NCBI RefSeq assembly: GCF_024642165.1
Contig: NZ_JAHEBP010000008.1
Span: 1 to 34,788, forward strand
DNA: 34,788 nucleotides
From: Demequina sp.
GTDB taxonomy: Bacteria > Actinomycetota > Actinomycetes > Actinomycetales > Demequinaceae
Direction of reading: 5' to 3'
The notes under the pieces were generated by a model, which saw nothing but the letters and a program-made list of their open reading frames with translations, was not told the DNA's origin and ran no database searches. The translations under genes were made by a program, and so were the position numbers. Shown piece by piece: positions 10,804-13,373 of the stretch (the stretch's first letter is position 1; each line of letters starts with the position of its first letter).

Positions 10804-11202
10804 ATGAGTGACGCCACCCTGCCGCTCGACGGCGAAGACGAGGCCTACACCGTCAGGCCGTACGCCGTGACGGGCGGGCGCGTGAGCGCCGCCCACGCGG
10901 GTCTGCCGATGGAGGCCCTGGTCGAGGCGACGTCCGACCCACAGACTTTGACGGGGCTCACCCCTGAAAAGAAGAAGATCCTGCAGCTCGCTACAGGTCA
11001 GTTCCAGTCCGTGGCTGAGCTCTCGGCCCACACCCGGCTTCCGCTGGGTGTGGTCAGGGTGCTCGTGACGGACCTTGCCGAAGTTCATCATTTGAAGATC
11101 CACGTGGGCGGAACGGTTCAGGACGCGAGCACTCATGATGCGTCCGGCGGTCTGTCCCTGAGCCTCCTGGAGAGTGTCCTCGATGGCATCGCAGCCCTCT
11201 AA
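10804..11202 (+). CDS. DUF742 protein (CvnC type)
   Basis: A 132-residue member of the DUF742 family. It carries the family signature RPYAVTGGR at about 18-26 and a helical C-terminal half resembling a winged helix (KKKILQLATGQFQSVAELSAHTRLPLGVVRVLVTDL). In conservons it is thought to be an adaptor in the kinase-roadblock-GTPase complex. The frame is open far upstream inside the kinase gene, but the true start is the ATG 2 nt after the roadblock stop. The last 20 bp overlap the GTPase gene. Confidence 0.9.
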   Translation: MSDATLPLDGEDEAYTVRPYAVTGGRVSAAHAGLPMEALVEATSDPQTLTGLTPEKKKILQLATGQFQSVAELSAHTRLPLGVVRVLVTDLAEVHHLKIHVGGTVQDASTHDASGGLSLSLLESVLDGIAAL

Positions 11203-11785
11203 CGCGGCAGTCGCCGCGCCAGCGGCTACCACCGCACCTACCGTCGTGAAGATAGTCATCGCCGGCGGCTTCGCCGTGGGCAAGACCACCTTCATCGGCT
11301 CCATCTCCGACATCGACCCGTTGAACACCGAGGCCGCCATGACCGAGCATTCGGTCGGCGTCGACGATGCGGGCGGAGTCACCGACCGGAAGACCACCAC
11401 TACCGTCGCCATGGACTTCGGCCGCATCGCGCTGCCGGGGTCCCTCTGGCTCTACCTGTTCGGCACGCCGGGCCAGGATCGCTTCCTCTTCATGTGGGAC
11501 GACCTGGTGCGCGGCGCGATCGGCGCCGTCGTGCTGGTCGACACCGAGCGTCTTGACCAGTGCTTCCCGGCGGTCGACTACTTCGAGGGCCGGGGCATCC
11601 CGTTCGTCGTGTGCGTCAACTGCTTCGACGGCGTGGCTCGCCACACCCTCGAGGACGTGCGCGAGGCGCTGGGCATCTCCTTCGACGTTCCGATCATGTA
11701 CACCGATGCGCGCGAGAAGGGTGCCACCAAGCAGGCCCTGATCGCGGTGGTCCAGTTGGCCATGCGCCGCATCAAGGACCGCTGA
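11183..11785 (+). CDS. Conservon GTPase (ATP/GTP-binding protein, CvnD type)
   Basis: A 200-residue Ras-like small GTPase of the MglA/CvnD branch, the presumed switch of the conservon complex. The P-loop GGFAVGKTT lies at about 28-36. The switch II region reads GTPGQDRF, and the usual NKxD base-recognition motif is NCFD, as is common in this family. Two starts are possible: GTG at 11174 and ATG at 11183. I take the ATG; either overlaps the DUF742 gene, which indicates coupled translation. It is the last gene of the operon; the cytochrome P450 found at the end of some Streptomyces conservons is absent. Confidence 0.92.
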   Translation: MASQPSNAAVAAPAATTAPTVVKIVIAGGFAVGKTTFIGSISDIDPLNTEAAMTEHSVGVDDAGGVTDRKTTTTVAMDFGRIALPGSLWLYLFGTPGQDRFLFMWDDLVRGAIGAVVLVDTERLDQCFPAVDYFEGRGIPFVVCVNCFDGVARHTLEDVREALGISFDVPIMYTDAREKGATKQALIAVVQLAMRRIKDR

Positions 11786-11800
11786 GCGGGGTCGATGCGC

Positions 11801-11857
11801 CCTGGCGGGACATGAGCGTCAGATTCGTCGAGAGTCTGACCCTCAGGTCCCGCCAGG
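11801..11857. repeat. Long palindromic element, left copy (57 bp)
   Basis: Arms 11801-11823 and 11835-11857 are inverted repeats matching at 21 of 23 positions around an 11-nt loop. Each arm has CCTGGCGGGAC at the outer end and GTCAGA at the inner end. The element lies 15 bp past the conservon GTPase stop and contains the stop codon of the nuclease-like gene, whose last residues PGGT are encoded by the right arm. A related element flanks the other side of that gene at 12845-12901. It could also act as a bidirectional terminator. Confidence 0.9.
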
Positions 11858-12784
11858 ACGAGCGAGGCGGCGTGCGACCACCGCGAGCAGGCGTTCGCGG
11901 CACCATTCGGGGCGCTTCGTGAGGTCGGTCCACCCGAAGCGCACCACCGCGTAGCCGGCCGCCGCGAGGTCTGTCTGGCGCTCGCGATCCGCATCGCGGG
12001 CCGAGCGCGTCGAGTGGTAGCGATCGCCGTCGAGCTCAACCACGACTCCCAGACGCCGGTGCAGCATGTCGACCGTCGCGCGACGTGACGGTAGGGCGAG
12101 CGCCACCTGCCACTCGAAGTCGCGGAACCTCGCGTCGGCGAACGTCTCGTGCCGCGCGCGCACCTCGAGCGGTGTGGTGGCGCCGTCTGCGAACCAGCCG
12201 AGTACGCGCTCGAGGTCGCGCCGTCCCGCGACTCGGAGCGTGCGATCGAGCTCTCGCCGCAGTTGCCGCCACGTACACACCCTGGCCCACATCGCCTCCC
12301 ACAGGAGGTTGCGCCGCGCGTCCGGATCGCACAGGGTCCAGGCGTCGAGCAGCGCCCGCTCGGGGACGGTGCACTCGACGCCGCTGGGTGCGCTCGACAC
12401 CCGGATCCGCTCGCCCTGGAGGCAACGCAACCATGCGGGCGCCCGGGGGCGGGTGCCGTTGGTGACCCTGAGGTCGGCGGTGGCGGGCGCGGGCAGGCGG
12501 TCGGCGTACAGGTGCAGCGCCAGCGCTCCGGTGACGCGCCCCGCGGGATGCCACAGGTTGAGGGCCTCGCCGCGCACGATCGGCGCCTGCGAGTGGACGC
12601 TCGCCGCGTAGACGCCCGGCAGGACTCGCCGCGCGCCGCCGCCGCGTACCGCGTTCTCCAGCGCCCTTCGCGTCCAGTGGCCGAGCAGTTCGGCTCGGCT
12701 GAACGCATGCGGATTGGCGGCGAGGAACTCCGGCAGCGGACGGCCGACGGCCCGCAGGCCTGGGATAGGGCGCATGCACGGCAT
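11843..12784 (-). CDS. AbiEi-like wHTH plus DUF559 (Vsr/PD-(D/E)XK nuclease-like) protein
   Basis: A protein of about 313 residues. The N-terminal part, ending in ARRVLPGVYAASVHS, looks like the winged-helix domain of AbiEi-type antitoxins. The C-terminal part (from about 230) looks like DUF559: VVVELDGDRYHST, then DRERQTDLAAAGYAVVRFGW, the Glu/Asp-rich core and G-x-x-V-x-R strand shared with Vsr and other PD-(D/E)XK nucleases. Such genes are abundant in actinobacteria without a settled role. I see no methylase or AbiEii toxin partner. The start is uncertain: ATG at 12784 is taken, ATG at 12775 is possible, and the frame is open to a TTG at 12835. It lies between two copies of one palindrome and has its own strand, unlike its neighbours. 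Confidence 0.75.
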   Translation of the reverse strand: MPCMRPIPGLRAVGRPLPEFLAANPHAFSRAELLGHWTRRALENAVRGGGARRVLPGVYAASVHSQAPIVRGEALNLWHPAGRVTGALALHLYADRLPAPATADLRVTNGTRPRAPAWLRCLQGERIRVSSAPSGVECTVPERALLDAWTLCDPDARRNLLWEAMWARVCTWRQLRRELDRTLRVAGRRDLERVLGWFADGATTPLEVRARHETFADARFRDFEWQVALALPSRRATVDMLHRRLGVVVELDGDRYHSTRSARDADRERQTDLAAAGYAVVRFGWTDLTKRPEWCRERLLAVVARRLARPGGT

Positions 12785-12844
12785 CCGACCACCCGGCGTG
12801 GTGCCGCGACACCCTGGCGGCACTTCTGTGGACAACGGCCGCGC

Positions 12845-12901
12845 CCTGGCGGGACGTGAGCGTCAGAATCCGGCCGGATCTGACCGCCATGTCCCGCCGG
12901 C
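12845..12901. repeat. Long palindromic element, right copy (57 bp)
   Basis: Arms 12845-12867 and 12879-12901 pair at about 17 of 23 positions, and the centre continues as the perfect palindrome TCCGGCCGGA, giving a long hairpin. The left arm matches the left arm of the copy at 11801 at 22 of 23 positions. With four more bases on the left (12841-12867 against 11797-11823) it matches 26 of 27. The loop sequences differ, so structure and arm sequence are what is shared. Confidence 0.88.
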
Positions 12902-12932
12902 GCGCGGGTGCGGTGGGTCGGGCGCCCGGCGC

Positions 12933-12944: not shown

Positions 12945-13373
12945 GTGATCTACGTCGACGGCTCCGGGCTGTGCCGCTTCCTGCCCGGAGTGCGCTACTT
13001 CGACGAGTTCAACGACTTCGCGGTACCGCGCCTCCGCGAGCTCGCCACCACGCAGCTGGGCTTCACGGAGCTGCGTCAGGCCGCCGAGCTCTACCCCCGC
13101 GAGACCAAGTCCAAGGCGTTCGACGTGGTCGAGATGGTGCGGTCCTCGATCCCCGTGATCCGGTTCTCCGAGCACAACGTCTCCATCTCGACGCACGCCG
13201 TGGCCGTGCTGAAACCGTTCGCGGCCCTGCACCTGGGCGCCGCGGTGGCGCACCCGGAGATCCACGCGCTGCTCACGTACGACGCCGAGCTCGCGCGCGC
13301 CGCGGAGCTGTACGAGCTCCAGGTGCTGAGCCCGGGGCTCGCCCCCGGCTGGCACAATATGACCGGCGCGTGA
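12945..13373 (+). CDS. PIN-domain protein (VapC-like)
   Basis: A 142-residue protein that reads as a PIN-like ribonuclease fold. It begins IYVDGSGL with the first conserved Asp (D5). Mid-domain acidic residues lie in FTELRQAAELY, and the C-terminal acidic site is LLTYDAELARAAELYELQVLSPG, the usual end of VapC-type domains. No antitoxin gene is adjacent on either side, so it is an orphan or a domesticated member. The GTG start is chosen because it directly follows the TACCCT box and MIYVDGSG is the normal PIN N-terminus. The stop lies 7 bp before tRNA-Ser(TGA). Confidence 0.65.
   Translation: MIYVDGSGLCRFLPGVRYFDEFNDFAVPRLRELATTQLGFTELRQAAELYPRETKSKAFDVVEMVRSSIPVIRFSEHNVSISTHAVAVLKPFAALHLGAAVAHPEIHALLTYDAELARAAELYELQVLSPGLAPGWHNMTGA

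Follow-up and report, generated by a model that had tools for sequence, protein, structure and literature searches.

The window, a stretch of 34,788 nucleotides from a 2.2-Mb draft genome of the genus Demequina, carries a DUF559 gene framed by two long palindromes (Table 1). The two copies, at 11797-11854 and 12841-12898, are 79% identical over 58 nt, and their 27-nt left arms differ at a single base. Each folds into one hairpin, with energies of -48.1 and -51.7 kcal/mol (z = -8.07 and -7.10), and none of 200 shuffled sequences folded as well. A scan of hairpin energies does not discriminate in GC-rich DNA of this kind. An arm pattern of 20 nt, with up to three mismatches allowed, matches the window four times, at both arms of the two elements, against 0.02 matches expected. 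An Rfam search of the window returned three tRNAs and nothing else.

A single ORF lies between the palindromes on the minus strand, and its stop codon and terminal residues PGGT sit within the downstream palindrome, as had been read from the sequence in the original prediction. Alignment and folding also agree with the earlier description of two hairpins that frame one gene and share 26 of 27 left-arm bases. The encoded protein exceeds the Pfam cut-offs for both DUF559 (31.5 bits, cut-off 20.6), the family first assigned to it, and MTES_1575 (40.2 bits, cut-off 38.2), and matches no other Pfam family. The gene is flanked by a GTPase gene, which we take to be of the conservon type, and a PIN-like gene.

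The true start of the gene is probably ATG 12775 or 12784 rather than TTG 12835, as judged from sequence features. The TTG codon is doubtful because it falls within a DnaA-box-like motif and because seven orthologs, all from Demequina, align to the protein from residue 14-37 onward. As this TTG opens the longest ORF and overlaps the motif, automatic start calls may err here.

Table 1. Features of the palindrome-framed locus, in window coordinates
Feature	Position	Strand	Basis
GTPase gene marking the site, Pfam ATP_bind_1	11174..11785	+	Pfam
Downstream (3') palindrome, holding the stop codon (11843-11845) and last residues	11798..11860	.	Hairpin, pair score
DUF559/MTES_1575 protein, longest ORF, 330 aa	11843..12835	-	Pfam profiles, ortholog alignment
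Vsr/EDxHD-like nuclease domain, residues 219-325	11861..12181	-	Pfam, structure model
N-terminal part, residues 29-213, winged-helix-like start	12197..12751	-	Structure model, weak AbiEi resemblance
DnaA-box-like motif TTGTCCACA, between 5' palindrome and gene	12827..12835	-	Sequence; enrichment in relatives versus controls
Upstream (5') palindrome	12842..12905	.	Hairpin, pair score; 63 nt in flank scoring (L031)
PIN-like gene marking the site, PF01850 under its cut-off	12945..13373	+	Pfam

Domains of the DUF559 protein

A structure model based on eight sequences is of moderate quality, with a pLDDT of 74 and a pTM of 0.50. The closest structural matches of its C-terminal domain include 3hrl (Z 12.5), I-Bth0305I (3r3p_A; Z 12.4, rmsd 2.4, 96 of 97 residues aligned), and Vsr (Z 9.8 for 1cw0, and 9.4). 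Foldseek places I-Bth0305I at E 0.026-0.029 with a TM-score by target of 0.79, and returned no match to the model at E <= 0.001. A sequence search against PDB chains gave a best E of 0.96. In fold, the modeled nuclease domain is close to I-Bth0305I, an EDxHD homing endonuclease, and to Vsr. Residues E241, D256, E267, D269, H274, and D283 are invariant in eight orthologs.

I-Bth0305I is described as a dimer whose target spans almost 60 bp (passages of PMC3943268), a length close to that of the palindromes. Unlike the case of that enzyme, no intron or intein is seen at the DUF559 locus, and the gene has an intact palindrome on either side. The protein differs from Vsr in its extra N-terminal part and in its pairing with palindromes. 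MTES_1575 is presented as a REase of the Vsr type with fusions to other domains, and the window protein is a member by sequence; the passages of that report concerned with the family mention no palindrome association (PMC3710099).

The N-terminal part gave no match in the Pfam search and was modeled poorly when taken alone (pLDDT 60). Its opening residues resemble a winged helix, at a low Z. Residues 29-213 can be weakly superimposed on AbiEi (Z 5.0, rmsd 7.9; in a second comparison Z 4.0, rmsd 7.7). The AbiEi-like end of the original prediction survives as this weak structural resemblance and not as a Pfam match, and the genes flanking the protein here, GTPase and PIN-like, set it further apart from AbiEi. 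The anti-phage profiles Hhe, ProA, and PDC-S37, of 1,550-1,911 positions, gave no full-length match. They align with 45-58 residues of the nuclease domain, and the window protein scores 21.5 bits for Hhe against a cut-off of 2000 and 20.7 bits for ProA against 1500.

Paired and dispersed palindromes

The first eight orthologs were inspected by eye. Seven carry a palindrome at both ends of the gene, and L027 has half of one at its downstream end. For a larger comparison, the self-complementarity of the 14-nt outer arms and the identity between the two flanks were added into a pair score with a maximum of 56, for palindromes 34-66 nt in length. The Demequina sample of 71 genes consists of 30 loci, 40 stretches taken down the ranked match list, and L013. 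The sample from other actinobacteria, 40 genes whose open frames span 290-485 codons, was hand-picked before scoring. Controls (n = 453) were geometrically equivalent placements in the window and in L024-L030.

A pair score of at least 44, a threshold chosen out of five between 36 and 44, is reached by 49 of the 71 Demequina genes, by 24 of the 40 genes of other actinobacteria, and by none of the 453 control placements. The last figure rules out a plain terminator or a chance palindrome. Lowering the threshold to 42 gives 53/71, 24/40, and 6/453. When the two flanks are drawn from different genes, 79 of 700 draws in Demequina and 11 of 700 in the others reach 44, the former because species share palindrome types. 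The genes below 44 number 22 in Demequina and 16 in the others; among them at least one, L054, is a methodological miss, since a stop codon inside the match misplaced the gene end. A direct-match test over 24 nt (at least 21 identical), applied to the Demequina sample less L013 and the N-containing L032, is less sensitive and agrees with the pair score: 32/69 and 17/40 genes pass, against 1/151 and 1/252 controls and 1/1500 and 4/1000 mismatched pairs. The predicted tie between the palindrome and DUF559 genes is borne out by these counts, and by the dispersal of cognate types described below.

Loci of named records, a set drawn from the matches other than H5 and H7, give the same picture in three of five cases (score at least 44). 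Tsukamurella tyrosinosolvens NCTC13231 has two DUF559 genes with two unrelated palindromes, and both pairs reach 56. The Arthrobacter loci score 50 and 42, and the Nonomuraea locus misses with 33. Seven of 674 placements in the class-level control reach 44, one in L104 and six in L127 and L128, which are not clean controls because they themselves carry DUF559-type genes of ~310 codons.

The flanking copies, compared by their inner parts, have no uniform relative orientation: 19 pairs are direct, 12 inverted, and 17 tied among 48 Demequina genes, and 12, 6, and 5, respectively, among 23 genes of other genera. The stop codon falls inside the downstream palindrome in 31 of the 48 and 8 of the 23. 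By eye, the palindromes of the scored genes have no common GTAG-type head beside them.

The palindrome also occurs away from the gene. A search of the host genome found the window palindrome at nine further places (contigs C22 twice, C26, C31, C67, C81, C108, C123, and C142), so that it is dispersed rather than unique to the locus. None of the nine frames a DUF559 gene, as the six domain matches in the genome sit on other contigs. One further pattern match, C119:7905, was dropped because it is not palindromic.

Relatives of the window protein are present in all 44 Demequina genomes, and the window's own palindrome type in 11 of them, at a length of 49 nt at all but four places; a reversed control pattern has no match. 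All six genomes whose fetched gene carries this type (G000, G006, G011, G030, G032, and G042) are among the 11 (hypergeometric p = 6.5e-5), including G030, which has half a palindrome downstream and a pair score of 33. The other five have no cognate gene among those fetched, and two of these, G014 and G021, hold several copies. A second type, of 47 nt, is found in nine of the 44 genomes, comprising all five with a cognate gene (G008, G015, G018, G020, and G023; p = 1.2e-4) and four without one among the genes fetched. The fetch covered part of the listed genes, and the pattern counts take in the flanking copies. A third type occurs at 8-46 places per genome in five of seven searched genomes of one family and in none of five from elsewhere, with no control match. 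Overall, exact patterns are found at 1-46 places in each genome that has any.

Thirty hand-picked copies of the third type (61 nt, four genomes) show complementary changes on the two sides of the stem. Pairs 16-20 and 24 are complementary beyond shuffles through such two-sided changes, and positions 21-23 and 25-30 are no better than shuffles; the outer 11 positions are set by the search pattern. The two Tsukamurella palindromes turned up in Tsukamurella records only, one at 20 places in 8 records and the other at 12 places in 9 records, counts in which some places may appear twice because a palindrome can match both strands. Among the best matches, 7 of 8 and 6 of 9 have no annotated feature beneath them in a gene table that is incomplete.

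Several arrangements of copies were seen in passing. Close pairs 150-270 nt apart, recalling BIME/REPIN doublets, occur at G014:C33 (373483/373672), G023:C1 (554644/554798), and G102:C1 (4482632/4482895). Three palindromes of the window's own type stand in series at G006:C32 (188732, 189265, and 190299) and likewise at G042:C21 (120934, 121467, and 122501), the first two of each series enclosing ~530 nt outside a DUF559 gene. Two identical 62-nt palindromes lie ~20 kb apart at G145:C2 (74916 and 94569), a sign of recent copying.

Empty sites and joint change of palindrome and protein

The site between the GTPase and PIN-like genes lacks the DUF559 gene in all 29 other Demequina loci examined, a set exclusive of 14 further genomes with PIN matches. 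The gap measures 39-315 nt in 28 of them and holds 1,287 nt of other sequence in G018. This insert (L183) contains an ORF resembling a sugar-nucleotide epimerase, and the gap may be insertion-prone. None of the three outcomes that the original prediction had named as refuting it was seen, the one at this site being relatives that all have the gene but no flanking repeats.

The gap in G009 holds a solo palindrome that, by eye, is like the flanks of another DUF559 gene in that genome, L097, whose own pair score is 35. A solo copy in G042 (L212, G042:C14) lies in an apparent coding linker and is missing from the four relatives aligned, L226 and L227 being set aside as they gave no plus-strand match. 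The L212 palindrome seems to be in frame within a membrane-protein-like gene, which suggests that the repeat can turn coding.

At one site shared by 14 Demequina genomes, which form a single cluster through homologous sequence on either side, the ortholog is kept and both palindromes switch jointly. Thirteen of the pairs score at least 43, and about ten types can be distinguished by reading, with the two flanks of each gene agreeing. A second site, shared by five genomes, has four types; four of the five pairs score at least 48 and the fifth is L054. The idea of a mobile cassette thus covers part of the picture: the gene is absent at the window's site in the 29 relatives, but in Demequina it often stays at shared sites while its palindromes turn over quickly.

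The distance between palindromes follows the distance between proteins across 35 genes. When the rest of the protein is controlled for, the partial r is 0.25 for residues 34-80 and 0.30 for residues 81-140 (p = 0.001 for each). In the same genes, residues 141-190 give p = 0.09, and the nuclease domain shows no link with palindrome distance. Palindrome divergence tracks residues 34-140 and not the nuclease domain.

A DnaA-box-like motif was spotted in these loci and counted afterward, so the count is post hoc. Within 270 nt around the expected start, TTNTCCACA occurs with at most one mismatch in 50 of 71 Demequina genes and 26 of 40 others, and perfectly in 20 and 11. The corresponding figures are 6/122, 6/168, and 8/123 in controls and 5/71 and 0/40 inside the gene, where none is perfect. 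In many of the loci the motif falls between the 5' palindrome and the coding sequence. Its presence hints at a coupling of expression or activity to replication. We read it as a DnaA box only tentatively, since the stricter TTRTCCACA is matched in 6/71 and 10/40 and the commonest third base in Demequina, C, departs from the DnaA-box consensus.

A probable cognate pair of endonuclease and palindrome

We regard it as likely that gene and palindrome form a cognate pair, comparable to REP/RAYT systems and built on an unrelated enzyme: a Vsr/EDxHD-fold endonuclease, probably dimeric, that recognizes its own palindrome. The N-terminal part would read one specific palindrome of ~45-65 nt, with one subunit of the dimer on each outer arm. 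The enzyme would cut or nick at the palindrome, and repair of the cuts would spread palindromes and occasionally move the gene. Scattered copies would then be non-autonomous elements. The chances seem evenly balanced that the pairs constitute an undescribed class, widespread among actinobacteria, in which a dimeric Vsr/EDxHD enzyme propagates its cognate palindrome as non-autonomous elements, specificity changes fast and jointly, as in the ~ten types that sister species have at one locus, and activity is timed by a DnaA box. PRDM9 and its hotspots, with their rapid turnover, offer a parallel to the switching of enzyme and palindrome.

To our knowledge, no enzymes other than RAYTs have been linked with palindromes scattered through bacterial genomes. 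RAYTs belong to the tyrosine transposases, have a relationship to IS200/IS605, and are described as always lying between two inverted REPs (passages of PMC2817692). The DUF559 pairs share with them the layout, one gene between two copies of a genome-dispersed palindrome, as well as the cognate pairing and the complementary stem changes. However, the enzyme has a Vsr/EDxHD-like fold and is no IS200/IS605-type tyrosine transposase by Pfam or fold, and the palindromes are longer, number 1-46 places per genome, are of mixed orientation, and have no common head of the GTAG type. The predicted likeness to REP/RAYT thus holds for the layout and fails for the enzyme family and the orientation of the flanking repeats, which makes the DUF559 pairs an analogue and not a member.

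As had been anticipated, no description of the pairing was found. Titles and abstract openings in the literature searched, outside most subscription journals and bioRxiv, contain no link between DUF559 and palindromes. A term search of PMC3733652, on prokaryotic palindromic repeats, gave no hit for actinobacteria, mycobacteria, Streptomyces, Micromonospora, or Vsr. We favor the reading of a REP/RAYT-like pairing with another enzyme at its core, in genes not so described in the literature searched. It ties an unrelated nuclease family to dispersed palindromes in several actinobacterial families, in genes labeled just DUF559. It also gives this abundant uncharacterized family a testable function and offers an explanation for palindromic repeats in actinobacterial genomes. 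The natural enzyme/site pairs present a readable specificity on long palindromes, with a turnover quick enough to be studied between sister species.

Three other explanations were weighed against the cognate pair. The nuclease may be host-domesticated and serve replication, repair, or the organization of the chromosome by acting at palindromes, with the repeats functional rather than selfish. The presence of relatives in every Demequina genome and the DnaA-box-like motif are consistent with such a role. So is a search with the window protein that gave no hit among 72,556 plasmid and 50,697 phage records. Yet a relative from another genus matched seven records of the plasmid collection, and the rapid turnover of palindrome types at one site looks like conflict, not housekeeping. 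We consider this explanation unlikely, though worth keeping in view.

Alternatively, the cassette may move only as a whole, in a homing-like manner, and solo palindromes may be scars left by recombination between the flanking copies, like solo LTRs, so that the enzyme spreads no lone palindromes. Cassette and solos do share a palindrome, relatives lack each of the two at some sites, and a homing endonuclease is among the closest solved folds of the nuclease domain. This account is improbable in the face of palindromes that outnumber genes, as in G145 with 46 places against four domain-family matches, and of a gene that often occupies shared sites instead of being dispersed.

An autoregulating DNA-binding protein, with the 5' palindrome as operator, the 3' palindrome as terminator, and the dispersed copies as other regulated sites, would fit the promoter-like position of the 5' palindrome, the winged-helix-like start, and the stop codons within downstream palindromes, but it is quite improbable, for a terminator need not match an operator and yet both flanks switch together at one site, a solo copy sits within an apparent coding linker and many others have no annotated feature at their position, and copies are missing from relatives.
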